From contig NC_135243.1 in NCBI RefSeq assembly GCF_947623445.1, forward strand, positions 19,848,479-19,912,478: a stretch of DNA of 64,000 nt, in the 5' to 3' direction. Positions 26,872 to 50,338 of the stretch are shown here, piece after piece. Numbering within the stretch: the stretch's first letter is position 1; each line of letters begins with the position of its first letter. Below the pieces are notes generated by a model. That model saw only the letters and a program-made list of their open reading frames with translations, had not been told where the DNA came from and did not search any database. The translations under genes and the position numbers were made by a program. The stretch comes from Clavelina lepadiformis (Eukaryota > Chordata > Ascidiacea > Aplousobranchia > Clavelinidae).

Positions 26872-29800
26872 ATGTATAAAAAGGTTTCAATTTACACGAG
26901 TATTTTGTTAATACTGGGAGCAATTACTTATGTAAATGTCTCTTATATCATGTCGTTGTTCCGTCCCCTATCTGGACCCAAGGCGCCAGTCCATACTACA
27001 AACCCACCCATTTACAATGAGCTGCGTGGGGAGTTAACTTCACATTCAATGGAGGATAGAACTACAGTTATGAGCCGGACATCTTCAACCATGGAGACCA
27101 TTTCTTCTCCTGTTGCTTCTTTTCTCGATGCACAGAATGTCATTGCATACAAAGGAGGATACGCAGCAAATCCACATCTCAAGAGACGATTGGACGAGGC
27201 GTTATCTAACGCTGGCACAAAAGTAATAATAACGATAAAAATGTAACCTTTGTCTCGAAGACTTATTTATATATTAGTGAAATAAATTTATGTATAGCTA
27301 GTCAGATATTTTCGAATACAATCAATTATGTCAATTAATATGGAAAAAAATATAATTGTATATGAAAAAGTCTGTTATTGGATTACTGCAATTTCATGTT
27401 TAAAAACCTATTTGAATTAAAATTGAACTAAGTTAGTATTAATAACTTACCCAACTTCTTAATGGTCATCTTTTTTATCGTTAAAATACTTTAGAATGTT
27501 TCTGTTTTTCATAGGAGCTAATGTTATGTCATGGTCGTAGCTTTTTGATACGAGTTGCGTGCTTTTTAGTTTTTATGCAGCAGAGTATTAGTGTTTGGAT
27601 TTATGGTAATATATATAGTTCAATAATGTTTCTGCCATACAGTTTCTTTTCTCTAATATAGTTTCTGCTTTGCTTCTTTTTGCAATATTTAATTTCGCAA
27701 AACTGCACTTCACGTAACTTTTCTCTTTAATTCTTTCACATATTTCTAGGAATCCTGTATAGTCACATGTCATTTAGGACTTTAGGTTGAGTCTTCCAAA
27801 ATGCAAGTCCTGGCTTCTCTTTTGCCTAGTTTTGTAAGCTTTATACACAGCTAACTAAATGTTGATTTATCAGGGTGCAGTAACAAATTTTGTTAAACTT
27901 GAAATTCCTGTTTTTCTGTTCACTTTATGATAAACTTTGAAAAATCGGCTTCTTAGCAGAAATACAGATATGTTTCAATATCTGCGTAACTGAATCATTT
28001 GCAAACCCTAAAATGTCTATGCAAAAGGGCATGGTGATGACACGCTTGTGCATGAAAAGCTTTCTTGCACAAAAACTGATGATGCGACTCCATTTTATCT
28101 TATACACACTGTGACGTAGCACACACTACCACCTAAAAACTACTCCTTTTTGTTTTGCTCAGTATGTCATTTTAATGTTGGGATGGCCACGATCAAAAAA
28201 TGGCGCGATGACCGAATTTGAATGCGGCAAATGTGAATTGACGGATGACATCACAAAGGTATTTTGAGGCTTGGTAAGCTATATACTGTATACATAAAAA
28301 GAATTAAAAATCAATAATGCGTTGCTACACCATTTACACATTTAGATAAACGATCCGGAAACAAAGGCAGTGGTGTTCTACTATCAATATTTATATAACA
28401 AAAGTAACAGTTTACCAAAAAACAGGTATGATATACAATATATTACATCATATTAAACGGAAATTTTGTAATTTTGAAAGCTCATTTTATACCGCTATCA
28501 GAATCACGTAAATTTTTCTTACATTTTGTACACATTTTCTCAGTAAAAGATCATTTTGTTGTGTTAGACGCTTGGACCAGTATTACGTGTGGTCGGCGAT
28601 GGAAAGTCCACCCTCACTACGAGTACTAAGAAATATGTCTCTAACTGAATACGACAACGTTTTCAATCTCACATGGACATACAGGTAGGTGATGCTGCAG
28701 GTTTTTATTTTTGAAACTGTAATGTTATGTAATCGTAACGGTGTGCACTGATGTGTAGAATTATCGAAAGACCCAAACGAATTTTGGTTGCCCAAGATGG
28801 TCTGATGTAACAGTAATTAACGCTTTACTTCGTTCAAGTGACCAAAGGGGATTCGTGATTTCAAACAAGTTTTTTTGGAATTTCCGTGGATAATTGTTAG
28901 TTAAGTAAAATAAACTAAAGCTTTCGTATTCCCGATGGATTGAGGAGCGGCGATCTATGAAATTGCTCTAACCTTCTAGAGGTCTGGTTTAATTCCCCAG
29001 TTGCTAATAATGTGTCACAAGTACCTTATTACTTTGGTGAGGACCATTGCAATTTGAGAAGACTGCGCACTTGGGCGCTTGAATCAACTTAAAATTTGGT
29101 GGTATTTTTTCTGTGTCTGCAACTAAATTAAACCTTAATTGTTTAACTAAGGATGAGCACCTTTACACATGCTACGTCGCAACGCTTATATAGCGGTAGC
29201 GCCGATTTGAAGTTGAAATGAAACATGATTGGGCAATTATGTAAAACAATTATTTGTATTAAACATTTAAAAGCAACCTTTTGATACCTGTAGACAGGAC
29301 AGCGATGTCCTGCACTCTCCCATATCAACTCCATCCTTCATTCTTCAAAGATTACTGGATAAAGGAAGTGGGAATCAAGACGAAGATGTTGAAAAATTAA
29401 TCAAGATGAAAACAGGCGTCGCCATTTGGATAGTTTCAAACTGTGACGGCACGAAAGGCGCAAAGAAACGAATACTATTAGCCCAAGATATGGTAAACCA
29501 TGGACTTGAAGTTGATAGAAGAGGACGTTGTTTCCCGGAAAACAGTGTACCTCCACGTGGAACCTCAACAGTTGATCTTATCCGGAAATACAAGTTTTAT
29601 TTTGCGTTTGAAAATAGCTACCACTGTCTAGACTATATCACTGAGAAATTGTACAAAAACTCATTTGTGGCAGGAACAGTCCCTGTCGTATGGGGAGCGG
29701 AAAAAAGAGATTATTTAGCCGTTGTACCACCGCATTCCTGCATCTTTGTGGAGGATTTTAAATCTACTGCAGAATTGGTAAAATATCTGAAGTATCTCGA

Positions 29801-30065
29801 TAAAAATGTCACCGCATACAGAGAGTATTTTAAATGGAGAACAATGAAGCCTCAAGATATGCCAAACTATGGTAGGCAGGCTAAGTTTTGTCAGCTGTGC
29901 CGAATCTTACATGGGATCAATGTGGATAATATTTTCAATCCACGTTATAACGAATCGTATTTGTCCATTCCGCTGTTTGAGCATCCAACTAGACCCCGTG
30001 TTGTTTCCTCTTTACGAGAATGGTTATACGGCCCAGTGAGCAAAGAATGCCTTGACACTTATTGA
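26872..30065 (+). CDS. GT10 alpha-1,3-fucosyltransferase A
   Basis: Five exons, 26872-27222, 28163-28258, 28346-28425, 28568-28684 and 29294-30065, with consistent phases (0, 0, 2, 2) give 471 residues. It is a type II Golgi enzyme that transfers fucose from GDP-fucose to glycans. A short cytosolic tail and signal anchor lie at about residues 5-30 (YTSILLILGAITYVNVSYIM), then a Ser/Thr-rich stem. Exon 2 carries CGKC of the acceptor domain and exon 4 carries WSAMESPPSLR. Exon 5 carries the GDP-fucose site FYFAFENSYHCLDYITEKL at about 316-334 and GTVPVVWGA at about 342. FKSTAELVKYLKYLD follows. Exons 4 and most of 5 are almost identical to gene B at 47918. Which glycan is made (Lewis type or core) cannot be told. 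Confidence 0.9.
27223..28162. other. intron 1 of fucosyltransferase A
   Basis: A 940-base intron, GTAATA donor to TTTTGCTCAG acceptor; nothing recognised inside. Confidence 0.6.
28685..29293. other. intron 4 of fucosyltransferase A, possible old SINE
   Basis: A 609-base intron. Near 28936-29090 a weak B-box-like GGTTTAATTCC with a downstream CCTTATTACTTTGG tail suggests a decayed tRNA-type SINE. By eye it shows no alignment to intron 4 of gene B, although both flanking exons are near-identical to those of B. Confidence 0.4.
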
Positions 30066-30196
30066 TTAGTTTTTAAATATTTTAAAACTATTATTGTTTT
30101 ATGAGTTTCATTTTTATCCGCATACGATATGCTTTGTATACTGGTTCTTACTGGCTCATAACTGCTCACACGGCAACAACGGTGACAGTTAGTGAC

Positions 30197-30202
30197 AATA
30201 AA
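30197..30202 (+). terminator. AATAAA polyadenylation signal of fucosyltransferase A
   Basis: AATAAA lies about 130 bases after the stop codon, at a normal distance for a short 3' UTR. Confidence 0.55.
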
Positions 30203-31169
30203 CATTTTCCTTCATTCTCCAATTTTGAGTTAGAAAATCCTATTCAAAATTATTTTTAAAAATTCAAGGTTATCCCGAGTTTTCAGCCAAAAAAAGGAAT
30301 AGATATTCAATCTTTTTTGAAAAATTTATATAATTTGATATACAGCAAGAAGTTAATTAGCCTACTATGAAAATTACATTGTAAGTGCTGCTTAGTTGAG
30401 TATGTTTTAAATTTAAAGTGGTCCGAATTCAATAAGTATAAAAATTTTGAGTCTTTTTGCGTTGTTTTCATCACATAGACTGTGTTTTCACCAACGTTTT
30501 CAAAATTAGTATAAACGACAGCAAGAGATATTATAAAATTGTGAAAGACTATGAAAAGAGAAAACAAAAAGGTTTTAACACATCAAATACGGCTTACTTT
30601 AAGTCCTGAATAAAACTTTTGCATTTATATCTTTTTTTCTTTTTATTAATTATATCGAATATCTACTTGAATACCTACATATAACTTATATACTTGAATA
30701 TGTAATACGCAAAATTTCAAAAAACTTTGATTTTGGATTATCATTTCATTTGAAAAACATTACTTTGGTTTTTCAGCAAAAGGTATCTTTAATGCTTAAC
30801 ATAAACTTACGCCATTAACATTACAGAGGACAAGAAAAGAACAGAGCCAAAACAAAAGTAAAACATATAGCTTATTACTGGGATTTTATCTAAGTAGTTG
30901 TATGTCACTTTCTTGTTTCGTAGTGTTCATTATCTCGATGTAAACATGAATGGCCTTAGCGTCGAGTTTGTCTTGACTGGAGTAAATTCATCATGAATTG
31001 TTCGTAGAAGATCTGGTTCTCCGGGCAGCTACTAAATCTTATTGTCAACCTGCTTTCTATGGTTTTGTAAATTTTTGTGGTGACTCTTGAAAAATGATAA
31101 GCATATAATAAACCAAGCTTCTCATTCTGGTTGTATGGTATGAACACATTCTTCATTAACGACTTGCAG
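30203..31169. other. intergenic, no gene seen
   Basis: AT-rich. The minus-strand frame at 30956-31156 (containing NEKLGLLYAYHFSRVTTKIY) has protein-like composition and lies head-to-head with the plus-strand coding fragment at 31170. It is unrecognised and may be part of a decayed element. Confidence 0.3.
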
Positions 31170-31402
31170 ATAAGTTATGCTTTGCCAGAACCACCGAAAA
31201 AGACAGCCGATTAACCAAGAAGATTGTGCTTCAATTACTAACCTGGCCTGGTCTTCGTATTCCTTTAGCAAAACTTGTAATCTTGGCAAAAGACAATCAT
31301 TTGTTTAAGAAATACCTAAACTTTTACCCCAAAGACCGCCTTAAAATAATACAACAAAAAAGGAGAGAAGATTTAATAGAAACACTTGTTGAGAAAGCTT
31401 AA
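31170..31402 (+). pseudogene. orphan terminal coding exon, unrecognised
   Basis: After an acceptor (CTTGCAG) the frame runs open to a TAA at 31400-31402: LCFARTTEKD, then LTKKIVLQLLTWPGLRIPL, LVILAKDNHLFKKYLNFYPK and RREDLIETLVEKA. It is Leu/Lys-rich, amphipathic and protein-like. No upstream exon with a matching phase was found between 30066 and 31160, so it could be the last exon of a lost gene or part of a transposon. Family unknown. Confidence 0.35.
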
Positions 31403-31433
31403 TATGAGTCATAATTACACCACACTTTCAAAC

Positions 31434-32020
31434 GGGATCACGTCAATTGACCGTGAACAAATTAACCGGCGACAATTGGTCGTGATCAACAGACCGGCTA
31501 CAAATTGGCCGGCGATCAAATTAACCTCGCAACAAATTGGCCGGCGATCAAATTAACCGGCGACAATTGGTCTTCATCAACTGATCGGCAACAAATTGGC
31601 CGGCGATCAAATGTGTAGTAGTGTAGTGTCATATGTGTTTTGCAGCGAAGTTCCTTTAATGTATTACTCGTATTTCCGGAAGTCTTTTTGTTTATTTAAA
31701 TAAATGTTTCAATTTGTATTGAAATAAAAATAAATTTTGTTATAAAAAGGAATTAATTACAAACAGATATTTACTTTACATATCATATACTACCATCAAC
31801 TTAAACACAATAATTCAGCACTTGCACGGTCAATTTACCTCCCAGTCAATTTTCATTCCGGTCAGTTGGTTCTAGGTCTAGGTCAATTTACGTCACGGTT
31901 AGTTTGTTCGCGGTCAATTTACGTCACGGTTAGTTTGTTCGCGGTCAATTTACGTCACGGTCAGTTGTTTCCGGTTAGTTTGTTCGCGGTCAATTTCCCA
32001 CGGTTAATTGTCGTGGAACC
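31434..32020. mobile_element. Mutator-like MITE with tandem-repeat inverted ends
   Basis: A 9-base target-site duplication, CTTTCAAAC (31425-31433 and 32021-32029), flanks a 587-bp element. The left end starts GGGATCACGTCAATTGACCG; the right end is its imperfect inverse (CGGTTAATTGTCGTGGAACC). Both subterminal regions are degenerate tandem arrays. On the left (31434-31613) the unit is of the type caaattggccggcgat; on the right (31826-32012) it is gttcgcggtcaatttacgtc. A 9-bp duplication with long inverted ends fits the Mutator superfamily. The central part is AT-rich and non-coding. Confidence 0.7.
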
Positions 32021-32141
32021 CTTTCAAACAAAAGCAAATAAAATCAAGCTAACTCAAATCTAGTCGTCCTTAGCGGAAGTACTGCGAAGGATGTAGAGGC
32101 TCATGTGTCATGTAGGCTACCTAAGTTGCAAGAAATGTAAG

Positions 32142-32480
32142 ATGGAAGAATTATTTCAAGGAAGAATTTCGATGAAAAGTAGTTTAGACATTAAGCCGAA
32201 ATGCACTCAAAAGCAAACGCTGTGTATTTCTGCTGGATGGTGGAAAAGTCTTTCTGAAAGAAAATCCAGCCAATGATTCCAGGTAAGAATATCATCCACT
32301 ACAAGCCACACCCATGTATCAACTATGCCATTAGATAGGAAAACAGGTTTTTTAACAACGGTGTCTCTTTTGTCAAATAATTAAATGGCAATACATTTGG
32401 GGAAGTAAGAAGGCGAAGAAGCAGTTAAGATTTGTAGTACGAGTGAAAACATTCTTTGTCATAGAATACGGCCTATTATG
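32142..32480 (+). pseudogene. FN3K pseudogene, exons 1 and 2 only
   Basis: Exon 1 remnant at 32142-32282 starts ATGGAAGAATTATTTCAAG and keeps the end of the exon (ctggatggtggaaaagtctt, then TTCCAG/GTAAG), but its frame is broken at least twice between. An exon 2 remnant at about 32405-32480 keeps the segment for PIKIxSRGEKxFFVxEY in damaged form (gttaagatttgtag, acattctttgtcatagaat). No exon 3 was found before the next copy at 33437. It is a degenerated tandem duplicate upstream of copy 3. Confidence 0.75.
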
Positions 32481-33436
32481 AAAATGACGTTTGTCTTCTA
32501 GGAAAATGTAAATCCCTTAGCTAAATCTTGAAAATGATTTGCATTAAATCAGTCAATTTCAAGTCGAAGACTCTTCTCGTTACAAAACCTATTTATAGCC
32601 AGTGCTATAAAACAAAGAAATAGTTCACTACATTTATATTTAACGCAGTTTCATATATTTAGTGAGTTTCGGTTGCTTGCTATGCACTATGATCCACGGC
32701 AGATTATCCTGCTTAGCCAAGTAGCAGTCCCATACGATACAAAACGCTGATAGTAGACGGTATAGTAGATTGCTTTAGATTCTTAGTAATTCAATTAAGT
32801 GTAAAATTAATTAGTATTACTTTTAGTGTAAAATGTGATATTAGTGAAATTAGTGTGTAATTAACACAGTACACTATCTGACTCTTGAATTAACAAAAAT
32901 ATTATTCTTGAAAAAAGATGTGTGTTAAGAGAAAGTAGGTCAGTAACTTTGGCGGTTTTATGCGAGAGGAGTTTACAGCAACGCTTGTGTATCTCCACTG
33001 GTTGGAGTGGAATGCAAAAGCAGAATTTAGCCAAAGGGTCCAGATAATAGACTGTCGCCTTATATCTCTGATTCATAGATCCTTTTCTATACAAATGTAC
33101 AGTGAACAACGTTTGCGTACAATGTACTGTAAAATATGTGATAAGATGCAAAAGAGATAACAAGTAAACCAAAGAGAAACGTTCAGCCGTAAATCGCTGA
33201 TTAAAAGATTAATCATAATGTACCTGGTACGTGGCTTAAATACGCTTTTAATAGATTTGTTGACGATTGTGTGCTGAGCAGATGTTTCCGCCATGCCCTA
33301 TTGTTTGCTGAGTGAAAATCAGAGAAATGGAACGCTTATAGAAAGCCGCATTATAATGAGCCGTATAAATTTACATGCATGCGGAAGTAAACTATAAATC
33401 GAGGCAATGTTAAGAAATACTTAGAGAACGTAAACA
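32481..33436. other. spacer before FN3K copy 3
   Basis: AT-rich with repeated agtgtaa(a/t)tta motifs around 32795-32860. Overlapping short frames on both strands near 32861-33294 have no family signal. No FN3K exon 3 remains. Confidence 0.4.
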
Positions 33437-35050
33437 ATGGAAGATCTACTTAAAGAAGAATTCCAATGCAGAAGAGTTAGATCTAGTGGCGGTGAAGCAG
33501 AAGGTTTGAACAGCGACGGTAGAGTGTACTTATTGGATGGTGAAAGAGTATTCGTTAAACGGAATCCAACAAAGGGTTCCAGGTTAAAAAAAAACTGAAC
33601 TTTACTTGAGTACTTATGTAACTTATTTGACTTAACTTTACTTATACTTTCGTACATCGACCTTTGGAATGTGCCGGCTTGTATTTTTACTGAAAATAAA
33701 GCTCATAAAAAAACCTTAACTAATGACTTTGATTTGTCGTTATGTCACTAGCTTATATATGCCTAATACTTTTTGGAATTGGCCTAAATGACGTTTTCTC
33801 AAATACCAGAACCATGTATGAAGGGGAATTAGCCAGCCTTACAAAGCTTCAGCAAACCAACATAATCAAGGTGCCGAAACCAATTAAGATTATCAATCGT
33901 GGCGAAATGTCATTCTTCGTTTTGGAATATCTTCTTATCAACCCGTTGCGAAAGCAAGCAGCAAGTAACTATAAACACAGTGTACACTTGCTTACGCTTA
34001 TAGATGTATTAAAACTAGGCATACCGTTTTATTGCAAGATATTTCACAAGTTTTGCGTTTTCGTAGTCATTTAAGCTTGTAACATATGATCTTGTATATA
34101 TATAGCTTATCTTGACTAATACATAATATTAAAAAGCCTCTTATAAGTAGGCTATAGTCAATAAATGCAAAAAAGATCAGAGACGTGTGTCATGCGATAT
34201 CTTCCGCTTGTTATGCAAAATTTTGTATGCCAGCTTTGTTTTTGACACCCTATTATTAATCTAGTCAATCTAGTGCAACATATTTGGCTTTACGTGCATT
34301 GTTAATGCGTACGGTGCTCTACCATATTTATTCAGTGTCGAAAATCCTCTTGTATACCTATTATTGTTACTATTATTACAGAGTGTTTTCTGTGAGAGTT
34401 TACTTGCATTGTTTTAAATTGCAGGTTTTGGAAAACAACTAGCTCAACTACACCTTTACAATGATAAGTTGCGCGTACATGTCGCAAAGACTAGATCCTT
34501 CGTCGGAGAATCAACGGAGTACGTTGACAAGTTCGGATTCGACGTCACAACCTCGTGTGGATTCATTCCTATGAACAACGAATGGGAGGCAGACTGGTTG
34601 ACGTTTTTCGCAAGAAACCGCCTTAAGCCACAAATAGACATGATTGTTTCCACTTACCATAATCGAGATATGTTGACTTTGTGGCCTGAACTTGAACGTA
34701 TTTTACCTAATGTTTTTCCGAAAAATCTAAATATTTCACCATCTTTGCTTCACGGTGACATTTGGGGAAACAACGTTGGAGAAGTTTCAAATGAACCTTG
34801 TCTGTTTGATCCTGCATCTTTCTACGGACATTCGGAGTTTGATCTCGCTCTTATGCATCTCATAGGAGGATTTCCTGCAGAATTTTATGAAGCTTATCAC
34901 AACTTAATGACAAAGCAACCAGGTTTGGAAAACCGCCTTAAAGCCTACATGTTATTTTATTTGCTCAACCGCTGGAATCACTACGGCAGTGGTTATAAAG
35001 CTTCGTCGATCGCACTTATGAAAGAAATCTGTAATCTATTTTGCGTCTGA
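33437..35050 (+). CDS. fructosamine-3-kinase family, copy 3
   Basis: Exons 33437-33582, 33810-33964 and 34425-35050 give 308 residues. The N-terminal loop is GGLNSDGRVYLLDG, the ATP lysine is in VFVKRN and TMYEGE opens exon 2. The catalytic loop is HGDIWGNN and the metal site FDPASFYGHSEFD. CGFIPMNNEWEADWLTFFA matches the vertebrate enzymes closely. The position of the FN3K redox cysteine is leucine. It follows the pseudogene by about 1 kb and precedes copy 4 by about 0.7 kb. All key residues are intact and it should be active. Confidence 0.88.
33965..34424. other. intron 2 of FN3K copy 3
   Basis: A 460-base intron, GTAACT to AAATTGCAG; no nested feature seen. Confidence 0.6.
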
Positions 35051-35721
35051 GTTGTTATCTTATATATATTTGGAACAATAATAGTCTATTGATAAAAAGG
35101 CACAATGCTTTTAAGTAATTTGTAGAATTTATAATTTCTGAAAGCAACTCTAATTTGCTTTGAATACTAAGCTAAGTAGGCCGACTACTAAATTTATTTC
35201 GCATAACCAAATACTTCAGCATCAAAGGTTTTGCAAAATACAAAAACTGGTCTTAGCAAGAGTAGGGTGATAAAATGTAGAGTGCAAAACAGTTTACTCA
35301 ATGCAAGCTTAGTTAAGTTTAAACTCAATAGGAAACTTATGAACATAAACGGTTGACGGTTTGTCTTAAACCCAGTTATTTATTACATAACTAGTTGCTT
35401 AGCATTAGAACAATAACAGGTGGCATAATTTTAGGTATAGACATGCTTGACGTACAAAAATATAAAACACCAAACTACAACTGCAAAATATTTTAACGTG
35501 GCCTGATTCTGGGCTATGTGACGTGGGCACGCACAATGACGCTGCCGAGCAACAATTTCCCACAGCTCATCTTATTCTAAAAAGTGCTTATCGACAGGAA
35601 ATCACTGAGCCAGAACGGGTGTTATCATCATAGCAAGCCTTTGTATGGCAGCGCATGGTCTATTATTATCGATTACAAGGCGAAATGAGACGCTATAACA
35701 ATTCTATACAGAACGCAACTT
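35051..35721. other. spacer between FN3K copies 3 and 4
   Basis: 670 bases, AT-rich, no exon or repeat recognised. Confidence 0.5.
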
Positions 35722-37579
35722 ATGGAGGATTTATTGAAAGAAGAGTTTCGTTGTCGTCAGGTTAAATCTAGTGGCGGTAAAACTGGTGGAGTTAACAGCG
35801 ATGGTAGTGTGTTTTTGCTAGATGGACAAAAAGTGTTTGTTAAAAGAAATCCAGCCAGTGGTTCCAGGTAGGTTTTACAAACAACTGTTCAAACGCTTAT
35901 TGTAACTAGTGGTCGTTGTACAAGTCATAGTGTTTAGTGTTATAGTTTTATTGTTATAGCGTTTGTTTGTAACTTGTGTTTGTACCAACACTAGTTGTAA
36001 CTCATAAGTTAATTTAGGCCACGGGTTTTTTACACGACCACGACACGACGCATCGACGCTTACATACAGTATAAACGAAACCTACATCCAGTACAGTTTG
36101 ATGCTGTTGTCTAAAAATAATTGAATCTAATCTTATAACGTTATAATAGTATATACGGTACTGTATATCTGCTGGCAACGCGAGATGATGTTTGTTTTTA
36201 AATTTTTAATTGGTCGTAGTTTATTTGCAGAAGAATGTACGAAGGTGAACGAGCCAGTCTAGAAAAGCTTCATGAAACAAATATAATCAAAGTGCCGAAG
36301 CCAATTAAGATTTTTAGTCGTGGTGAGAAGTCGTTCTTTGTTATGGAGTATCTCGCTATCAATTCTCTGCAAAAGCAAGCTGCATGTAAGTACCTTAAGC
36401 TTGTTTAAGCAGCAATGTTGCTGATGACAGTTGCTTTACCACCAGACCGTTACAGGACATTGAACATTCATTTCAGTGAAGAACGTTGCCTTGAGAGTCA
36501 CAGGCTTAGTTTTGCGTTAGTTATTAAATATAATTCAATACATTACCACATATTAGCACATACTGTACAGTTAACGTCTGGATCACGTGGGTGGGATTAT
36601 TTCGTCGCTATACAGTTGATGTAAAGCAAGAATTCTTTTATTTACTGTTATTGAGTGAATGGTTTGTAAATTATCACAGTGTTCAGTCGGGCATTGAAAG
36701 CTACTGGATGCCGTATTATTTATTTTAGATGTAAAAACACTAATCACGGAAGTTCTTTTAAACGCGTATCCTTAGATTGCGTTGCCGTGGGAAAACTTCG
36801 GCATTTAACAATTGTATTTGCATTCTGCAAAGTATTATTGCAGATCTAGCCATAGCAAGGGTCTGTAGAATTAACTGACCAGTAGTCATCAATTTCATTT
36901 TCATATGTGATCACTGTTTTACAATATAGCCAGTTTTTCTAATTAATACTTTGCTGTAATTTTTATAGGTCTTGGGAAAAAACTGGCACAACTTCATATC
37001 CACAATGAAAAATTACAAGCTCTTTCGTCGAGGAATGGAAGTTTCGTAGGAAGGTCCTCTCAATATATTCAAAAGTTCGGATTTGATGTAACAACCTGTT
37101 GCGGATTTCTTCCAATGAATAATGAATGGGAGGACGACTGGTTAACTTTTTACGCTAGAAACAGATTACAGCCGCAAATTGACCGAGTCATTTCGACCTA
37201 TCAAGACCGGAACGTGTTGAGTTTGTGGCCAGAACTTGAACGTGTTTTGCCCAAGTTTTTTCCAAGACACTTAAAAATCACGCCAGCACTTTTACACGGT
37301 GATTTTTGGGTTGGAAACACTGGAGAGACCGGAAGCGAACCTTGTGTGGTAGATCCCGCCTCGACTTACGGCCATTCCGAATTTGATCTCGCTCTGCCAC
37401 CTTTTCCTACGGAGTTCCATACTGCTTATCATAAAGTCATTCCTAAGCAACCAGGCTTTGACAAACGGCATAAGATCTACATACTTTTCTATATGCTTAA
37501 TCGTTGGAACCACCTCGGCAGTGGTTACGGGCCAACAGCTGTGGCTAAAATGCGTGAAATTTGTTCGTTAATGAAATAG
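35722..37579 (+). CDS. fructosamine-3-kinase family, copy 4
   Basis: Exons 35722-35867, 36231-36385 and 36969-37579 give 303 residues. The N-terminal loop is GGVNSDGSVFLLDG and the ATP lysine is in VFVKRN. RRMYEGERASLEKL opens exon 2, close to the human form. The catalytic loop is HGDFWVGN and the metal site VDPASTYGHSEFD. After FDLAL the chain reads PPFPTEFHTAYHK, several residues shorter than copies 1-3, a feature shared only with copy 5. The P-loop cysteine of the family is valine here. Introns are 363 and 583 bases. Confidence 0.88.
36386..36968. other. intron 2 of FN3K copy 4
   Basis: A 583-base intron, GTAAGT to TTTTATAG; no nested feature supported. Confidence 0.6.
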
Positions 37580-38258: not shown

Positions 38259-39548
38259 ATGGAAGAACTGCTTAAAGAACAGTTTGACTGCAAGGAAGTC
38301 AAGTCTTGTAATGGTAAAACGGGAGGAATTAATAGCGATGGAGGGGTATATTTACTGGATGGCAAAAAAGTGTTTGTAAAACGAAATCCAGCAAAAGGCT
38401 CAAGGTAAAGTCAACATCTGGTAAAAATGTTATGTACAAAATCGTGTTGGTTGCTCGACTTAACAGCGATTGTATTTCGACTTCCTTGCAAGCTTTGTTT
38501 GCTAGTAGGCTACTGAACTACAACTGATTGAGGCGCAAAGCATTTGCATTGTGAAATTAAGTTAACGCGAAATGTTAGCTGCCATTGCGATGTTTAATCT
38601 TAATTTTTACCTATACTTGTTTATTTACATAGAAGAATGTACGAGGGAGAACACGCCAGCCTAATGACACTTTATCAAATCGACATCATAAAAGCGCCCA
38701 AACCAATCAGGATATTTAGTCGTGGCGAAAAGTCTTTCTTCGTTATGGAATATCTTGCCATAAATCCATTACTAAAGCAAGCTGCAAGTGAGTTAATTGT
38801 AATTCTAATCAGAGGTTTTACAGTAGTTAGTTTATTTGCGCTGTTGTTTTCTTGCACGTTGTGTAAACGTGTTTTTAAATTTAGACCTTTCATGGACGGT
38901 TTTGTTTGCATTGAAAGATTTCTTAATCAATAACTAGGTCTCGGAGAAAAACTAGCTCAACTTCATCTCTACAATGAACAACTTCGGGTGCTGTCTTTGA
39001 AAAACGAATCGTTTGTAGGGAAAACCACTCATTTCGTTGAAAAGTTTGGATTTGACGTCACCACTTGTGTTGGTTTCATTCCAATGGACAATAGATGGGA
39101 AGACGACTGGTTGACCTTTTACACGAGAAACCGTTTAAAGGCACAAGTTGATCGAGTAGTTTCCACCTACCACGACCGTGATGTAGCGAGTATGTGGCCT
39201 GAAATCGAACGAGTTTTGCCTCAACTTTTCCCAAGCGACCAATCAATTATACCGTCTTTGCTCCATGGTGATTTTTGGGTGGGAAACACGGGTGAGATTG
39301 ATGGGGAACCCTGCATATTTGACCCCGGCTCTTCATACGGTCACTCTGAATTCGACCTGGCGCTTCCCCCTTTTCCGTCTGAATTTCATGACGCTTATCA
39401 CAAAATCATTCCCAAGCAGCCAGGTTTCGAGAAACGTCATAAAAGCTACATTCTTTTTTACCTTCTCAACCGCTGGAATCATTTTGGAAGTGGCTACAAA
39501 GCCTCAGCCTTAGCATTAATGCGTGAAATCTGTGCCTATAACAAATAG
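38259..39548 (+). CDS. fructosamine-3-kinase family, copy 5
   Basis: Exons 38259-38404, 38633-38787 and 38938-39548 give 303 residues. The N-terminal loop is GGINSDGGVYLLDG and the ATP lysine is in VFVKRN. RMYEGEHASLMTL opens exon 2. The catalytic loop is HGDFWVGN and the metal site FDPGSSYGHSEFD. It shares the short PPFPSEFHDAYHK segment with copy 4 and is clearly its closest relative; exon lengths are identical (146, 155, 611). The P-loop cysteine position is isoleucine. It is the last of the array; no further copy was found downstream. Confidence 0.88.
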
Positions 39549-39637
39549 TTCATTTACTTTGGTACTCAAGATGACCATGTTAATGTTGTTGTTCTGAGAT
39601 TTACGCAAATTGAGGTATGCTCATTTAAGTTACAGAA

Positions 39638-40339
39638 TAGGGTCGCCATATATCAGGATTTTCCCGGACATGTCCGGGATTTTAGTGTTCAAATCTGCGT
39701 CAGGAATAAATGTTAAAAAGTGCTTAAATGTCCGGGTTTTTGAATAATGCAGTTTATGAAATTTAACTGACAATATTTTCACGATAAGAATTTTTTTAGT
39801 GTCAAAGATTAAACTTTGTTATTGTTTTACTGTTAAAAATGGTTAAGCGAAAATGTAAATTTACTGACGAGATGCAAGCAAGCTCTGAAGATACCCTTTT
39901 GACTTATGAGGGTACCTTAACTTAATTAACCTGTTAAATTATCTGACTCTATTGTTGCGTGCGGTTAGAATACTCTAGCGCTAGCCTTTTGCCGGCTAAA
40001 AGGTTTTGATATTACAACAGAAATAGCTTACAAGAAAAGGTTTTTATTATAGGTGCTGTACACTTTCTCAATATTACGAATAACGAAGAACATAAGTAAT
40101 GCTATTGCTTATAAGATGGCTATTGTCTATTAAACAGAAAGTTTTTGCACTAAGCAAGTGTGGCAATTCTGTGCTTTTCCCCCTCTGTGACAGTGAAGCT
40201 GTCTTGCCGAAAATATAAGCGTTTGGATTGGTAGGATGTAAGAACATGCTGCAAAATGTCGTGTAGCGTATGTTTGGTGTCGCAAAAGTTGGTCATTGAG
40301 ACCGTCAGGAGTTTGGCCTTTTCTAATATGGTAACCCTA
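39638..40339 (+). mobile_element. decayed hAT element, transposase N-terminus relic
   Basis: Terminal inverted repeats TAGGGTCGCCATAT and ATATGGTAACCCTA bound 702 bases. An ATG at 39839 opens MVKRKCKFTDEMQASSED, the usual start of a zinc-finger (BED-like) hAT transposase, and then stops early. The rest of the transposase is missing. An 8-base target duplication is not convincing (ttacagaa and gtataaaa), so the ends may have drifted. Confidence 0.55.
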
Positions 40340-42099
40340 GTATAAAATAAATTTTTGTTTATTTCACACATAGTCTTTTATAAGTGTAAATTACGTTTAA
40401 CACTGCAAATGGTGTTTTAGTCTTAAGAATAAGATACGTTTAATGCATATAGCTTACTATGCAGAGAGATTGATCAAACGATTGTAATTTTTGTAGAAAA
40501 ATGAAACAATTGAAACAAACATTTGATTTAATAAGCCTACTATATATTCTTGGCAGAAATAAAATTATAAGCCATAACTAAGGTGTCTGTAATTTACGCC
40601 CCGCTGAAGGTAACAAACATTAAAGGTTTTTATATAAATAAGACACAATTCATTTTTCACGTGTCCAAATTTACACCATACTTTTGGTTTTAATAAACTA
40701 ACTAGCCAACATCACGCTGCATGTGACGTAGTACGTTTAATTATTGACGCAGATTGATTTTCTAACACCTTGCAGCAACCATCAAAAGCACAAACGATAG
40801 AGTCTTTTGCTCACCATTCTGTTTATAGAAGAAAGGGTCTCTTCTTCCAAATTGTGGAAAGAGACCGCAACAATCAGAGTCGTAAACGGGTCTTATGATT
40901 ATATTTTTAACCCGAATCGCAAAATACAAGACCGAACCCGATGCTAAAGTATGGCACCAAACCAATGTGCACGATCTGATAATTGCAAATTAACTAAGTG
41001 ATAAAAACTGTTTAGCGTTGCATCATCACATGTGGCATGTCACATACAAAACTTTCGTTTTTTCACTGAACAATGTGCTTTATGCAGGAAGTGTTTCATA
41101 TACTACTAGAGAAATGCTAGTGAAGTTTAGATTTATTCATGCAGTTACGACCATGGCGATTGGTTAAAACGATCAATGAGGAGCGTACAAAGTATCTAAA
41201 CGGTGTTTTTGGTTGATTTTCTAGGTTCAAACCATGGTGGTTGGTAAAATTGAATGTTAAAGTTGACATTCATGCAACCATGTTGGTAAATCTTATTGAT
41301 TCCTACCAATTTTCTCGTCTGGACATAGTTGGTAATTAAACATTGGTAAATAAAATCAAAATTTTGGTCACTTGCACTAATTATTTTTAGAGTGACCAAG
41401 CAAAATATTCACCCAATATATAGCTTCAAACTGTAAAGCTCCTTCTATTCGCCATTGAAAACCATGAGCAATGACGCAAAATCGTAACTATTTTAGGCAA
41501 AATTTCCCATTTTACTCACATTTCTTGTGGACACAACAAGACTAATTACCCCCAAATCAAAATGAAGTAATGTTATTATTACATTCTCTTTAAAAAATGA
41601 TGGACTTTCCTATGAAACAAAACTTACATTATTATGCTGGGTACTATTTTGAATTAATAATTAATTAATGTAACCCCCGTCAGTTATTATAGACGCTCTC
41701 ATGTAACATAACATGTTCATCGTCGTGTAAAATCATAAATCAGTTTTCCGGTATTAAGTATATTAACAGATGACCAGTGATTTGTTACCACAAAATCATG
41801 TCCATGCATGTCTTTACATCTATACTGCGGTGTACAAAAAAAGAACTTAAAATTTGATAAAAAAAATCTAAATCTGGTGTGGTCTATTCAGGTTTTAAAA
41901 TACATTTCCAAAACTATACACAGGTATCAGACACCGATAAAAGGTGTTCTGATTTCGACGAGTACGTTTGGTGCTTTCCAGACCTACTCTACTTAAGCAT
42001 TCGTTCTGCCTCGGATGAAATAAGAAGTCACCACACTGTTCGACATTTCGGACCTCTCGAGTTGCTGATCCCAAAGTTTACGAAGACTGTAACCGAAGC
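40340..42099. other. intergenic, no gene seen
   Basis: AT-rich. A segment at 41210-41360 repeats taggt(t)ggtaa-like words in both orientations. A frame ending at 42142 overlaps the protease first exon in another frame and may represent an alternative upstream exon (DKRCSDFDEYVWCFPDLLY), but has no family signal. Confidence 0.35.
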
Positions 42100-45000
42100 A
42101 TGGAGTTGGCTCTTCTCTCAAGTCTGGTGTTCACTCTACTAGCGAATGGGGAAGCAGCGCTGTCTAGAGAAAGGTAGGTGCTACACCACTTTTTCCGTCT
42201 TACAAAAAACAAATTCGCTACTGTATTGGTTTTGCACAGTGTATATATACTTTACCGCATAAATAAATGGTTTATGGAAATATTATATGATTTTTGTACG
42301 ATATATGCTTGGCTGTTAATGCACTTCAAATGGATGCTTTTCAGCTTAACGAAACTGAAGCGTTCATCGCCATTTAAAGATTATTTCAAGAACTTTGGCA
42401 AACATTCCAGCGACTATGACGATGAGGCGATAGGTTGTGAGACTTAGTACTATACCAGTGTACCAGACAGTGAAGTTTTGCATTGCACAGAAACCCTCAT
42501 TGCAAGTGACTACTAACGATTTACTTTTACAGGGTCTCGTCGCTTGATTGGTGAAAGGAGGTATAAAATCAATTTTGATAAAATTTTGCTTGAATAATTG
42601 CGGAATGAAAAATGATTAAAACATATTGTGTACATAGATATATCTTTGCTAAAGCATAATTGCTTAAACTTGCTTATAATTTGATTCACAGAGTAAAGCG
42701 TCGACACCAAGACTGCACAAAACGTATGTGATTTAACTTTTTCAACGCAACGGGGTGGCTATAAAACATACATACAAGTTACACATACACACTTGCTGCA
42801 AACATTAACATACAAAATGAACTTGCCGAAATTAATTTTTTTTCAATTTTGAAGAGATGGCTATGGAATTATTAAGAGATAATAACCAGGATAAAGAATG
42901 TGGTTTGCGGTATCTGCCTAAGATGGAAACTAACAAGCGAATCCCACGTGAGTAAGATTTTTGTCAAATGTAAGCTGCAACTGTTGACCTTATATACTGT
43001 AGTTAATGGACTATAAAACAGAAAACACATACTTGCAAGTGCCATCGGAATTAAGTTCGCGAGATAGTTCAATTTAATTTATTCTCAATGAATTTTTTGC
43101 AAATTTTTTTTTGTGAATTGGTTAAACAGTTTTTAGAAAGCTCTTTGTTCTGATATTTATATTTAATATTTTATTTACGATTGATAGATGGCCAGTCGGT
43201 TGAAGTAAATGAATTTCCCTGGCACGTTGCAGTTTGGAGACACGATCAAACCATTTGCGGAGGTGTGCTTTTGACGCGAAATCGGATCCTTACGGCAGCG
43301 CATTGCATTGAAGAATGTCAACTGAATAACTTTGGCTTTCAAGATCGCTACGAGACGTGCACGGAGAAAGATAACTCATATTTGTATATATCACATAACT
43401 CATAATAAAGTGTGAAGAACAATTTGTTTCAGGAAAAGTTTCAAATAAACGTAACAATATACGTTTATTACGTTAATACGTTTATTGTATACGTATTATT
43501 TTCGTTTTCTTCGGCCTCGGCGAAAACATTAAACTAAATATTTTGTGTTTTCTGTAGAGATTGGCTATGTCTAAAGAAAGGAAAGTACTCCGCCATTGTG
43601 GGAAAAGGGATACTCAGCACTCTAAGCGAGCATCATCAACGAAAGGAGGTCTTCAATGTAACCCAAGCTTACATTTTGCCGAACTATGAAAACAGACTTG
43701 GTGCCCTTGCGTAAGTGTCACAGCCGTGTTTGCTGGAAGGTGTTACAACCGGACGATTAGATATATGAATTTAAGCTAACCAATCTCGCATATAACCATG
43801 CGGTAACCACCTCAGCTACTAAGTTCTGCTTATTTACACTTACAACGGCAACGCAAGTATTCAACTAATTAAGTAAGCGATTGCCTCCAGCAAAGCCTAA
43901 TCGGTAACGCGTAATTGTACTTCAACCTATCGGGCCGACAGAAGTCGCACTTCGTAGTCGTATAAGAACGCAAAGAGGAAATTGTGTAACTAACTCTAAC
44001 AATTTTTGATACTTTTCATAGTTTGGTTTTGTTTGAGCTTTTCTCTAAACTGATTTAGAAAAATTGCCAAAAAAGCAGTAGTTAAAAGGTTTCTTATTGT
44101 GCGCAGTTTCTTTCATTTCGGCGTCGGGATTAAAGTATAGCCTATATACTCGAATATAATCATTGCAAAAAATGAAATTTGCCATGATAACATCAAAAGA
44201 TGACTTTGATTCATGCAATAAATTTAACCTTCGGGCCCAATTCGGACTTCACATAAATTTTCGCGGTAAAAATATAAAGCCCGCTTACAACTGTGTTACA
44301 GTAGGCCTATATACTGTGCATTGGTGCAACTATGGCTATCTCCATGACCAAATAGTTCTAACTGTAGAGTGTTTACTGCTGTGGGTGTTTGTAGAGTGTA
44401 GAATGTATTCGCAGAAACGACTTTGCCGTTTTACACGTTGAGAGACCAGAGGAAGAGGATTTCGACCAACCAGTTTATCTCGGTTGCCTGTGGAGAGGAA
44501 GCATGAATAATGCGCCCACTAGAAGTTGTATTGCAGTGGGCTATGGCAGAACTAAAACAGGTCTTTGTTTTAATCGTTTTGTAGACTCCACTTGCCCTAC
44601 AATCTACATGGTTGAATGCTATAGTTTGAGGCTTATACCCTCTAAGATTACAAAAAGATTTATTACTTCCAACTATAGACACTTCAAGGCATACTTCCAA
44701 AATTTAACGGTATTAAAACTCATAAAATTCTTCATCACAGTTAAACACCTATTTTAGCTCCTTACAGCAGAATTCTTCAGAAGGTCAATGTAGCTGTTAA
44801 CGATTGCAATGAAAAATACCCCACATATTTCTTCAAATGCGTGAATGCAAACCATAAAGAACAAGTTGTTGGCTGCCAGGTAAAACTGGAATGCTTTACA
44901 AAATTATAATTTCAAAAGGGAGCTATGTTTAGACTAATACTATTCAATTCAGCTATCCTTTTTTATCTGTAAAATATCCTAGGCAACGTTCAAGTCGAGG

Positions 45001-45337
45001 TAATCACTCCGATTACATGTCACCTGCTAATGACATGCTACTTTAAATTTAACAGTTGTAACATCTATTTTCGTTGTAAATAAAAGAACCTGCCTCACGT
45101 TTATGTTTGTTTACTGAGAGTTTGTTGCAGGGTGACAGTGGAAGTCCAGTGATATGCCCCATTGACCCAAACAATAATTGTTCTCCTTACTTCGTCGCTG
45201 GCCTGTTATCAACCAATGAAAACGGCGCCAGGGGGGTGCAGTGCATCAATGACAACAAATACAGCGTCATAAATCGTCTCGATAATCCTTACTTGATCGA
45301 CAACCTGCAGCTTGAGCGACCGCACGTCCAATGCTGA
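42100..45337 (+). CDS. secreted chymotrypsin-fold serine protease
   Basis: Exons: 42100-42173, 42692-42723, 42855-42947, 43188-43383, 43558-43710, 44415-44560, about 44771-44879 and 45131-45337. A signal peptide (MELALLSSLVFTLLANGEA) opens exon 1. A propeptide with CGLRYLPK leads to the activation site KR/IPHGQSV. Catalytic His105 is in LTAAHC, Asp in NDFAVL (exon 6) and Ser in GDSGSP (exon 8). Residue 189 (chymotrypsin numbering), six before the serine, is Val, and GDSGSP replaces GDSGGP, so trypsin specificity is unlikely. The donor of exon 4 is uncertain (43383/43384 or an earlier GT). Exon 6 ends in phase 1, while exon 7 (LQKVNVAVNDC) needs phase 2 or 0, so either a micro-exon was missed or the gene is damaged there. 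Confidence 0.75.
43711..44414. other. intron 5 of the serine protease gene
   Basis: A 704-base intron, GTAAGT to ATTCGCAG; no nested gene. The frame inside it at 44163-44441 ends in exon 6 sequence read in another frame. Confidence 0.55.
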
Positions 45338-45421
45338 CTTCCCCGCGTCCAACATGATATATTTCTCGACGTCGACCAACAAATTTCGTTATCGTTTACA
45401 TTGACTGAGATTTTTATCAGA

Positions 45422-45427
45422 AATAAA
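45422..45427 (+). terminator. AATAAA polyadenylation signal of the protease gene
   Basis: AATAAA lies 85 bases after the stop codon, the first such signal downstream. Confidence 0.5.
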
Positions 45428-45547
45428 TTTTTCTAGAGTCTAATGAAAACATACAGATTTTTAAGCAGTGATAGGCTAACTAATAAAATCAACATTGTAT
45501 CAATATTGTGCACTTTATTTTAAAGTACGACACACTACTTAGCAAAT

Positions 45548-46771
45548 GGTGTACCGACACTTAATCACGCGACACTTAATCACGCGACGCTTAATCACGC
45601 GACACATAATCACTAGGACATTTAATCACGCGACACATAATCACTAGGACATTTAATCACGCGACTTGGATACTTAATCACGCGACATTTAATCACGCGA
45701 CACATAATCACTTGGATGTCGGAAAAGCGTGAGAAAAATTCAGTAATTCAAGCTCGTGTGCATCTCTCTGTGGGGATGGCGATGTGGATTGCTTTTAAGG
45801 TTGGCCTTAAAGCCAAAGGCTATTAGTCTTTCTTTTAGAACTCCCCGACAATTGTCTTTGACTCCGTTGCGCCGGCTTTCTCTATAATGTTTCTTTAAAT
45901 CAACACCAGCTTCATAAAGTCTAATTGTTATATTGTCCGAAATAAGTTGTATCACATTAGAAACATTTTCATCATCTTTTCACATTTAAACAAAACTATA
46001 ACTCCAATTCAGTAATGAACAGTCCAGAAGGTAAAACTGATATTATGTGTAGAGACAAGAAGGGGAGATTTTAACCAAACCTTAGTTTTTATACAAACAC
46101 ATTAGCCAATCAGGAAATAACACGTCATTTTGCATTGCTACGTATAACCTATGTAATATCTAACATTATTCTATTGTCACCGAAGCTCTTGACCAAAGTA
46201 CCATCAAAACGTTACACGGTGAAATACAATGCTACTTGAAACTGTGTCAGAGCGTCGGTTTTGGAACTCTTTGTTTGGTTATCGATTTAACTACGAAAAA
46301 TACACTTCAAACACTCAAATGAATTGAATCTAGCTAGAGACACACCCAATGCATTCTTTACAATGCCAATGAATGAATTATTACAATTTACTATCACGAC
46401 CGCCACATCTCTTTGTATCTATAACGACTAGTCTAGTCTACAGACAATCTCGTACTTATCTTCGTGCAGTTGCTTACATTTCCCATGCATAACATTGCTG
46501 TAAATTATGTGATTATGTGTCGCGTGATTAAATGTCCTAGTGATTATGTGTCGCGTGATTAAGTGTCGCGTGATTAAATGTCGTAGTGTTTATGTGTCGC
46601 GTGATTAAGTGTCGCGTGATTAAATGTCCTAGTGATTATGTGTCGGTGATTAAGTGTCGCGTGATTAAATGTCCTAGTGATTATGTGTCGGTGATTAAGC
46701 GTCGCGTGATTAAGTGTCGCGTGATTAAGTGTCGCGTGATTAAGTGTCGCGTGATTAAGTGTCACCAAACC
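45548..46771. mobile_element. Mutator-like element with satellite-like inverted ends
   Basis: A 10-base target duplication, CTTAGCAAAT (45538-45547 and 46772-46781), flanks 1224 bp. The left end (45548-45715) is a tandem array of ACACTTAATCACGCG (15 bases) mixed with a 31-base variant containing CACTAGGACATTTAATC. The right end (about 46508-46763) is the same array inverted. The termini begin GGT. An open frame of 71 codons lies inside on the minus strand (45955-45740). The duplication length and long inverted ends fit Mutator-like elements. No transposase remains. Confidence 0.75.
45740..45955 (-). CDS. open frame inside the Mutator-like element, 71 aa
   Basis: It reads MIQLISDNITIRLYEAGVDL, then KHYRESRRNGVKDNCRGVLK and ends HREMHTSLNY. 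The composition is protein-like, basic and polar. It is unrecognised. It could be a fragment of a transposase or of captured host sequence, the latter being common in this superfamily. Confidence 0.3.
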   Translation of the reverse strand: MIQLISDNITIRLYEAGVDLKKHYRESRRNGVKDNCRGVLKERLIAFGFKANLKSNPHRHPHREMHTSLNY

Positions 46772-46781
46772 CTTAGCAAAT

Positions 46782-47917
46782 ACACAGAGGCTACTAACCA
46801 ATGAATTTTTCAAAAATTTTTTGTGGTTGAGCAATTATCACTAGAAATAAATACATAATTCCCTACGCTGACTTTCATTTTTGTCACATCTTGTTATGAG
46901 TTGGCTATTACGTCGCCACAAACTGAAATCAATAACCGTGACTACTGTTCGCTGAATTTGATTCAAGTTACAAGTTAGGTCAAGTCGGCGTTCATACCAA
47001 GTACTCGATCGAATTTGGACAGTTTTCAGTACCCAGCAAACAACATCACGAGCAACGCTGCTAAATTTTTAAAAACAAATCAGCGTGTTTAAATACGTTT
47101 ATCTTTTATAAACGTTCAACGTAGTTATCGCCAAATAGCTTTCATTGTTTAATCGAATTAAGGAACGTTACAATTAAATATTGAATGATGCTGGTAATAT
47201 TTATAATTAATCAAATTTGCTGTGGATATGTGTAAGATACTGACCTGAAAGGTAGGTATAAAACCATGACACCAATATCGCAGTATTCTGATCGGAAGTG
47301 GACTACTAGTTGCACATAAAGTTTCACTGCTGTGCGATTTTAGCGAGATGTTATTAGTGTAAAATTCTGAATTATAATAAACCCGATTCAGTTTTGAATT
47401 GGTTGTTAATAAGGAACGAAAAAGAGTACATAAGTTTATCAGACACACGAGCTGTATCGACGACAACGGTTATTATATGGCGTTATCATGCGTCGTATTA
47501 ATCTGCTTCTTCGCGTTACCGTGTCTGTTGTTTGACCAGATAACGCTACACATGAAATTGTGGTTACCGTATGTTATTAACAGAATGTACGGGGAAATTA
47601 AAGTCGAAATATTTTCTGTTTTGCCTTAGGGAACGCACGCATGTTGTACACATACCGTTGTGCTATAGTTCATAGTTTTTGCAGAGATTAATTAAAACAT
47701 ATTTTTAACGTTGGTAATAAACAGAGTCGCAATCCGTTGCAGATTTGTTGTGATTATAACAAAATCATCTAGAACGGTTGTATACATAGTTTAGAATAGT
47801 TAGATAAAGGTATAGGCTATAAACATTACGTAAATGTAAAGTACGGTTGTTCAGATATTATATATTGTTATAACTCGTTGCTAGTTTGAAAGGTTGCATT
47901 ATTAGCTTTTATCTGCC
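46782..47917. other. region upstream of fucosyltransferase B
   Basis: No recognised gene. The frame 47399-47629 contains a hydrophobic stretch (MALSCVVLICFFALPCLLF) and could be a tiny membrane protein, but lacks any other support. Confidence 0.35.
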
Positions 47918-50338
47918 ATGAATAACAAGGTTTGCATTTTCGTATTTATTTTGCTCATATCTGTACTTCTTTGCTATCGGAACGCCTCGGACACGTTAAC
48001 TTTCTTTGAGTCTCACATCACGTACAATAAGATCAATCGTAGTTTGGTTTGGACTTCAAAGAACAAAGCTGCTGCAGTTAAAATCAAAACGATGACAACT
48101 TCAACCAAGAAAAATATTTCCGTTACTTCTATGCAAGTGCAAAATTTCATCGACTACAAAGGAGGATATACAACAAATTCTCATCTTATAAGACAACTGG
48201 ATGAAACGTTATCTAACGCTGACAAGAAAGTAAATATAATATATGTGTTATTTAAATGGAAGTGGTATTAACATGATATTTTTGTGTAGCCTGTATATAC
48301 TGTATTAGAATTATACAATAAGGGACTATTCAAAAGAACTGTTTATTTTCTTATACTTTGAAAAAGGACTATGCGCATATCTCAGAAACACATTAACGAT
48401 GAACTAAAGCTAAATTGTATCACCAAGAAATCTGCATGCAACATGTCTTATATATCTTATCAAGCAATATTCAATCTACGCGATGTGATGAAGTTTTTAT
48501 AGCCCATGTTTTTCAATGGGATTTATTTTGTGCAGTACACTATTCTAATTTTGGGGTTGCCAAAATTCCAAACTTTTTCGGCGAGACACAAAATTAACCA
48601 ATCCGAATGCGGAGCATGTGACTTAACAAATGACATTTCAAAGGTAATTTTTAATTTAAACAACCCGTGAATTGAAGGTTTGCTAAATATTACGCTTTGT
48701 TATACAGTATACACCTTTAGATCAATGATCTTGAAACAAGAGCTGTGGTTTTCTACTACATGTATCTATTCAGAAAACGTAGCAGCATGCCTAAAAACAG
48801 GTATAATTTGAAAAATCAAAAAACTGAACAGGTTGTAATGTATACCATTTATAATATAAACATCGTTTTTTTTTATTAGACGCTTGGACCAGTATTACGT
48901 GTGGATGGCGATGGAAAGTCCACCCTCATTACGAGAACTAAGAAATATGTCTCTAACTGAATACGACAATGTTTTCAATCTCACCATGACATACAGGTAG
49001 GAATAGCTTCAGATGCTGTTCATTTGAATAGAGTTAGACCTATTCAGTTAGACCATTCACAAGCACTAAGAGTACTAAGACAGATATAACTGTTATCTTT
49101 TGTTTAAATAGCAAAATATTCATTAGTAATTTTGCATTGTACAAACTACAAAGCATTCTGAAGCACTTGAGTTAATATGAGTTATTTTAGCATTTATGGG
49201 CGTACAAACGTCAACATTTTATTTTGACGATGAGAAGAGGAAAACTGATAGATTGGCCTAATTAAATGTACGAACTACAAGTATAAGCCAACTATATCGA
49301 CTGGATTGGATTATTATATGGATTTTAGACTTGATTGTAACTAAAGACATATTTCGACAAAGTAGCACTGACCACAATAAGACCAGAACCGTTTCTGAAA
49401 GCAAAACTAATTAAACTCGGAATTATACTTGGGTTCAATGTCACTTTTGTTATGCCAAAATCATCGAACCGATACGTAACAACAGCAGCATGACCATTGT
49501 AACGATTAGGCTACTAAAAAAACGTTTGCTTATGGTTTGACAAACTCTTCTACATTTTACTACTTGTAGACGAGACGCCGACGTGTACTACCCAAAATCA
49601 ACAGCTTCAAAACTTTTACAAGAACTTCAGAAAACAGGAAGTGGCAACCCAAAAGTAGATATTGATGATATGATAAAAATGAAAACGGGAGTTTCCATTT
49701 GGATTGTTTCAAACTGTGACGGCATGGAAGGCGCAAAGAAACGAATACTATTAGCCCAAGATATGGTAAACCATGGACTTGAAGTTGATAGAATGGGACG
49801 TTGTTTCCCGGAAAACAGTGCACCTCCACGTGGAACCTCAACAGTTGATCTTATCCGGAAATACAAGTTTTATTTTGCGTTTGAAAATAGCTACCACTGT
49901 CTTGACTATATCACTGAGAAATTGTACAGAAATGCATTTGTGGCAGGAACAGTCCCTGTCGTATGGGGAGCGGAAAAAAGAGATTATTTAGCCGTTGTAC
50001 CACCGCATTCCTGCATCTTTGTGGATGATTTTAAATCTACTGCAGAATTGGTAAAATATCTGAAGTATCTCGATAAAAATGTCACCGCATACAGAGAGTA
50101 TTTTAAATGGAGGACAATGAAGCCTCAAGATATGCCAAACTATGGTAGGCAGATTAAGTTTTGTCAGCTGTGCCGAATCTTACATGGGATCAATGTGGAT
50201 AATATTTTCAATCCACGTTATAACGAATCGTATTTGTCCATTCCGCTGTTTGAGCATCCATCTAGACCCCGTGTTGTTTCCTCTTTACGAGAATGGTTAT
50301 ACGGCCCAGTGAGCAAAGAATGTCTTGCTACTTATTAA
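47918..50338 (+). CDS. GT10 alpha-1,3-fucosyltransferase B
   Basis: Five exons, 47918-48229, 48536-48643, 48721-48800, 48880-48996 and 49570-50338, with the same phases as gene A, give 461 residues. The signal anchor is VCIFVFILLISVLLCY at about residues 5-20. The stem is basic and diverged from A, but DYKGGY and HLIRQLDETLSNA at the end of exon 1 match A. Exon 2 has CGAC, exon 4 WMAMESPPSLRELRNM. Exon 5 has FYFAFENSYHCLDYITEKL and GTVPVVWGA, the GDP-fucose domain. Exons 3-5 match A in length almost exactly. The 3' part of exon 5 differs from A by only about 15 bases in 600, whereas exons 1 and 2 and the first 100 bases of exon 5 are clearly diverged. Confidence 0.9.
48997..49569. other. intron 4 of fucosyltransferase B
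   Basis: A 573-base intron, GTAGGA donor to TACTTGTAG acceptor. By eye, no similarity to the equivalent intron of gene A. Confidence 0.5.

Follow-up and report, generated by a model that had tools for sequence, protein, structure and literature searches.

Exon-confined similarity in a tandem pair of fucosyltransferase genes of the ascidian Clavelina lepadiformis points to repeated interlocus gene conversion

Two neighbouring fucosyltransferase genes of the ascidian Clavelina lepadiformis raise the question of how parts of two coding exons can be almost identical, synonymous sites included, when the intron between them shares no recognisable similarity. The genes, here called A (26872-30065) and B (47918-50338), lie in a stretch of 64,000 nucleotides (NC_135243.1, positions 19,848,479 to 19,912,478; hereafter the window) on a contig of 25,070,715 bases (C4), in a genome sequence of 209 Mb and 95 contigs; the assembly figures published for kaClaLepa1.1 are 210.1 Mb, 102 scaffolds and 9 chromosomes (PMC10884593). 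Both are on the forward strand, about 20 kb apart, and the exon models give each gene five exons, GT-AG introns and a complete, intact open reading frame of 471 (A) or 461 (B) amino acids (Table 1). Both products pass the Pfam cut-offs for the Glyco_tran_10_N (28.7) and Glyco_transf_10 (23.9) domains, with 77.4 and 167.4 bits for A and 75.7 and 170.6 bits for B, which identifies them at the sequence level as GT10 fucosyltransferases. The original prediction held that the pair is homogenised exon by exon, that an intron should not be passed over by DNA-level conversion, and that either a spliced complementary DNA (cDNA) template or two separate short tracts would explain the pattern. We find it highly likely that the answer lies in repeated DNA-level interlocus gene conversion, limited to islands of surviving homology in an old tandem pair and comprising at least two tracts.

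Synonymous divergence (dS) was computed per region by the NG86 method on an A/B alignment of 455 codons. It is 1.06 in exon 1, 1.34 in exon 2 and saturated in exon 3, against 0.13 in exon 4; within exon 5 it is 1.21 before position 29440 (part 5a) and 0.043 after it (part 5b). Uniform synonymous divergence, one of the outcomes named beforehand as refuting the prediction, is clearly not what the pair displays. The predicted count of about 8 differences in the 117 bases of exon 4 proved exact. For exon 5 the low divergence was correctly recognised, but the tract starts at about 29433-29440 and not at 29455, and 17 of 621 aligned bases differ in place of some 15 in 600 (4 of 191 codons for the same amino acid); likewise the beginning of the exon is indeed diverged, over about 140 bp and not 100. 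Amino acids are altered in 10 of the 14 differing codons of the homogenised exon 5 tract (29440-30062 versus 49713-50335), with a ratio of nonsynonymous to synonymous divergence (dN/dS) of about 0.56, which is not out of line with the values of about 0.2 to 0.8 in other family pairs of dS below 0.2.

A likelihood-ratio scan over the 328 codons that encode the same amino acid in A and B, tested by permutation, recovered both tracts. The main one (29433-30045) has 3 synonymously differing codons out of 190, against 50 out of 138 outside it (log-likelihood ratio 39.3; reached in 0 of 2000 permutations), and the second (28418-29298, essentially exon 4) has 3 of 37 against 46 of 100 (log-likelihood ratio 9.9; 20 of 5000 permutations). 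An earlier segment scan, with weights of +1 and -1.5 on synonymous codons, was non-significant (2922 of 20000 permutations); it was replaced because the best-scoring segment ran from exon 4 through the diverged part of exon 5 into the tract. The pair thus shows interlocus gene conversion in the sense of a tract whose synonymous divergence lies far below that of the rest, beyond chance. Support is very strong for the exon 5 tract and moderate for that of exon 4, partly because exon 4 opens with 27 bp that are conserved even in paralogs on another chromosome. Of the two explanations first offered, that of two separate short tracts is supported.

The introns tell a different story from the tracts. 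Alignment scores of introns 1-4, of 300 bp of 5' flank and of 500 bp of 3' flank were compared with 200 dinucleotide shuffles, and none of these regions showed local similarity between A and B above the shuffles. The observed local score was reached by 35, 10, 81 and 194 of the 200 shuffles for introns 1 to 4, and by 135 and 171 for the 5' and 3' flanks; both the missing similarity of intron 4 and the end of the match at the stop codon had been predicted. A transposon insertion was considered as the cause of the intron 4 mismatch and is disfavoured, because no second genomic copy of either intron 4 was found, each matching only itself, in a search that skips very common words.

Five paralogs on contig C3 served as a yardstick of constraint. 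In part 5b the proportion of synonymous differences (pS) is 0.78-0.80 between A or B and each of the five, whereas A and B themselves differ by 0.041. Synonymous sites can therefore change freely in this stretch, and the likeness of A and B is recent. Exon 4 is partly constrained: A differs from the C3 gene g1 at 22% of its bases (26/117), the figure for exons 2, 3 and 5a being 44% (135/306), and synonymous differences in its first 27 bp amount to 0/7, with none among A, B and g1. Past these 27 bp, 3/26 same-amino-acid codons differ between A and B compared with 31/60 for exons 2, 3 and 5a taken together (p=0.0006); between A and g1 the level there is the usual one (9/20 versus 21/41, p=0.79). 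Exon 4 has therefore been homogenised as well, with moderate support, over a core of about 90 bp. The leading segments themselves (28568-28594 and 48880-48906) hardly differ, even at synonymous sites, among A, B and the five C3 paralogs (17.94 and 18.08-18.11 Mb), where the rest is diverged; they may act as a splicing signal or stem from an older conversion between chromosomes.

The GC content of third codon positions in A and B is 0.377/0.367 in part 5b, 0.487/0.487 in exon 4, 0.404/0.410 in exons 1-3 and 0.417/0.312 in part 5a, and it gives no hint that conversion in the main tract was GC-biased. Polarising the A/B differences by the C3 paralogs gave a mixed outcome that indicates no direction of conversion.

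Table 1. Exons, fourth introns and exon 5 tracts of the two fucosyltransferase genes (positions in the window)
Feature	Position	Strand	Remark
Gene A exon 1	26872..27222	+	diverged, dS about 1.06
Gene A exon 2	28163..28258	+	diverged
Gene A exon 3	28346..28425	+	diverged
Gene A exon 4	28568..28684	+	homogenised with B, 8/117 differences; first 27 bp also kept in C3 paralogs
Gene A intron 4	28685..29293	+	unalignable to B intron 4; second genomic copy not found
Gene A exon 5, 5' part	29294..29437	+	diverged, dS about 1.2
Gene A exon 5, homogenised tract to stop codon	29438..30065	+	17/621 differences; GT10 C-terminal domain
Gene B exon 1	47918..48229	+	diverged
Gene B exon 2	48536..48643	+	diverged
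Gene B exon 3	48721..48800	+	diverged
Gene B exon 4	48880..48996	+	homogenised with A
Gene B intron 4	48997..49569	+	unalignable to A intron 4; second genomic copy not found
Gene B exon 5, 5' part	49570..49710	+	diverged
Gene B exon 5, homogenised tract to stop codon	49711..50338	+	homogenised with A

Are introns simply fast in this family? The GT10 C-terminal domain has 93 matches (matches, not genes) in the genome, on contigs C1-C9 and often clustered, which is a large fucosyltransferase expansion; a literature search, judged by title, found no paper on fucosyltransferase expansion in tunicates. A GT10 array on C8 near 2.32-2.35 Mb has a period of about 4,565 bases. Within one assembly of one individual we surveyed 8 loci from the 11 DNA matches of exon 5 together with the best 30 of the 93 C-terminal matches, adding 12 pieces from clusters on C5 and C9 and extended stretches of C3, C2 and C7. 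Removal of six duplicates (L034, L037, L038, L040, L044 and L049) left 32 loci, and that of L008, a truncated copy, 31 for the dS survey, which covered 73 locus pairs that align over 120 residues or more with an amino-acid identity of 60% or above; pairs with dS below 1 are reported.

Among the 26 pairs whose last exons have a dS below 0.2, both flanks are alignable in 7, one side in 12 and neither in 7, at a score cut-off of 60 that is arbitrary, since shuffles are beaten on either side of L031/L036 and on the 3' side of L026/L027, and since the upstream stretch can include an exon. The 7 pairs with neither flank come from four sites: A/B itself, the cluster close to 18.1 Mb on C3, which supplies 4 pairs and has one member at 17.94 Mb, L026/L027 and L031/L036. 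Other duplicates behave differently. L005 and L007 form a single match of 2,092 bp at 94.9% that runs to 13 bp past the stop codon, beyond which the 3' flanks differ, and L045/L048, with a dS of 0.275, still form a single match of 2,116 bp at 86%. Since introns remain alignable in duplicates whose exons have diverged as much or more, the sequences argue that introns are not fast in general in this family.

Exchange in the sister clusters is at the DNA level and carries introns or flanks along. L003 has the upstream intron of L004 and the 3' flank of L005/L006, the exon 5 sequences being 93-97% alike among them. L054 and L057 have both flanks in common, whereas the exon-intron-exon block is of the L050 type in the former and of the L058 type in the latter, introns included; therefore one of the two received a block with its intron, as DNA.

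Islands bounded by exon edges recur in other clusters. In L004/L005 (C3) the exon 5 cassette runs from 4 bases within the exon to 8 bases beyond the stop codon, and the match of L026/L027 extends from splice acceptor to stop. On C5 the subgroups L050-L053 and L055-L058 are 92.6-95.0% alike in coding exons, with a differing short intron and mostly differing flanks; about 100 bp upstream are 73-80% alike in several pairs. The short intron before the last exon contains an insert rich in GGTACT/AGTACC in L055-L058 (C5, 24.08-24.10 Mb) and none in L050-L054, so that the longer intron type looks like one holding an inserted palindromic element.

From the observed divergence pattern, the loss of intron homology and the two non-contiguous tracts, we infer the following mechanism and order of events. 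A and B are an old tandem GT10 pair whose introns, flanks and variable exons are now at or close to saturation. Intron homology was probably gone by the time of the recent events, because the unconverted exons have a dS of about 1 or more; for a pair of this age, an intron passed over is no argument against DNA-level conversion. Heteroduplex could then form only in exons, and repeated conversion would copy between A and B solely where pairing persists: recently in the C-terminal catalytic part encoded by exon 5, and separately, possibly earlier, in exon 4. The tract limits at the splice sites of exon 4 and at the stop codon would mark homology running out, and the limit within exon 5 near 29433-29440 would be an ordinary tract end or a divergence barrier.

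Several observations weigh against this mechanism or qualify the pattern behind it. The loss of intron homology may not be total, as global alignment scores are slightly raised in introns 2, 3 and 4 (z 3.4, 2.3 and 2.5, reached by 0/200, 2/200 and 1/200 shuffles), perhaps through the splice-site ends or faint residual homology. The exon 4 tract seems older than that of part 5b, but marginally so (p=0.043 for all bases, 0.067 for synonymous codons), and an exon of 117 bp amid unrelated introns looks a small target for strand invasion. The recurrence of exon islands would rest on other paralogs of the same genome. In L026/L027 a stretch of 259 bp about 1.1 kb upstream is shared (87.6%) and a faint 3' similarity scores 44 against a shuffle maximum of 29; therefore the exon island is not the sole surviving similarity there.

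Could a single event account for both tracts? One long DNA tract may once have stretched from exon 4 across intron 4 into exon 5, its middle being restored later by a third paralog or through allelic recombination with an unconverted allele. This would unite the two tracts, whose difference in age is marginal. Yet the restored piece would have to start exactly at the donor site of exon 4, the 5' edge at the acceptor site of exon 4 and the 3' edge at the stop codon would have to match exon limits too, and the assembly yielded no third copy of either intron 4. We regard this history as unlikely.

A reverse-transcribed spliced messenger RNA (mRNA) of one gene, serving as template for the other, would explain why the likeness reaches no further than the splice sites and the stop codon and spares the introns. 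A cDNA tract across an exon junction is expected to delete the intron, and all four introns are retained in A and in B. Moreover, the patches in exons 4 and 5 are non-contiguous in the mRNA, the first 140 bp or so of exon 5 lying diverged between them, and exchange in the sister clusters takes introns or flanks along. Genome DNA searches with exons 4 and 5 found no close intronless copy. The 7 matches of exon 4 are A, B and the five C3 genes, and in those five the tblastn matches of exons 4 and 5 lie apart; the 11 matches of exon 5 include a distant, broken copy on C7 and the partial L008, candidates of unassigned structure. Neither a homogenised stretch contiguous in the mRNA nor intron loss was observed, nor a processed copy among the exon 4 matches. 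The template first proposed is thus very improbable, and we give even less credence to a variant in which spliced RNA or cDNA homogenises family exons in several short patches per event and recipient introns are kept. If that process were real, catalytic exons would be shared across paralogs, with acceptor-side exons and introns left to diverge. Least probable of all is that strong purifying selection, synonymous sites included, keeps the exons alike: exon 4 does change slowly, but selection covers its first 27 bp and not the remainder, and the C3 yardstick excludes it for exon 5.

Yeast ribosomal protein gene pairs are whole-genome duplicates under very strong protein constraint. Like A and B, they combine highly conserved paralogs with divergent introns, and with divergent untranslated regions (PMC5755908); A/B differ in that constraint is excluded as the explanation for exon 5. 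A precedent is the pair GOT1Sd/GOT1Sr of Tigriopus californicus, in which conversion between paralogs is largely restricted to exons beside an unalignable intron, and where the authors reason in the same way that divergence ended conversion in the intron (PMC3728101). That study compared four populations and identified its tracts with GENECONV (PMC3728101), whereas ours concerns one genome, and in A/B homogenisation is limited to exon 4 and part of exon 5, exons 1-3 being diverged. Mosaic concerted evolution has also been described for mammalian BMP8A/B, DDX19A/B and TUBG1/2, where within one pair some exons evolve in concert and others diverge; the homogenised stretches there include introns, as the selection described by the authors required (PMC2720389). 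Exon-confined conversion of the A/B kind is thus already known; somewhat unusual are its recurrence in a family of 93 matches and the small target in exon 4.

The surroundings of the pair hold other repeated elements. Five tandem fructosamine-kinase-like exons (9699-10373, 12963-13649, 34418-35050, 36947-37579 and 38934-39548) lie before and between A and B; their aligned stretches are about 71-79% alike, and no near-identical stretch was seen among them. Arrays of a unit of about 15 bases (GTGATTAAGTGTCGC-like) at 45555-45716 and 46509-46763 are in inverted orientation with about 800 bp between them, and are possibly the ends of a mobile element.

For the A/B pair, the divergence of introns and that of the last exon can yield opposite ages, and gene trees built on the last exon can mislead. 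The pair is a clean and measurable case of exon-confined gene conversion in a strongly expanded enzyme family, and the family pairs within this one genome offer a set in which to ask what length of homologous island is still enough for conversion.

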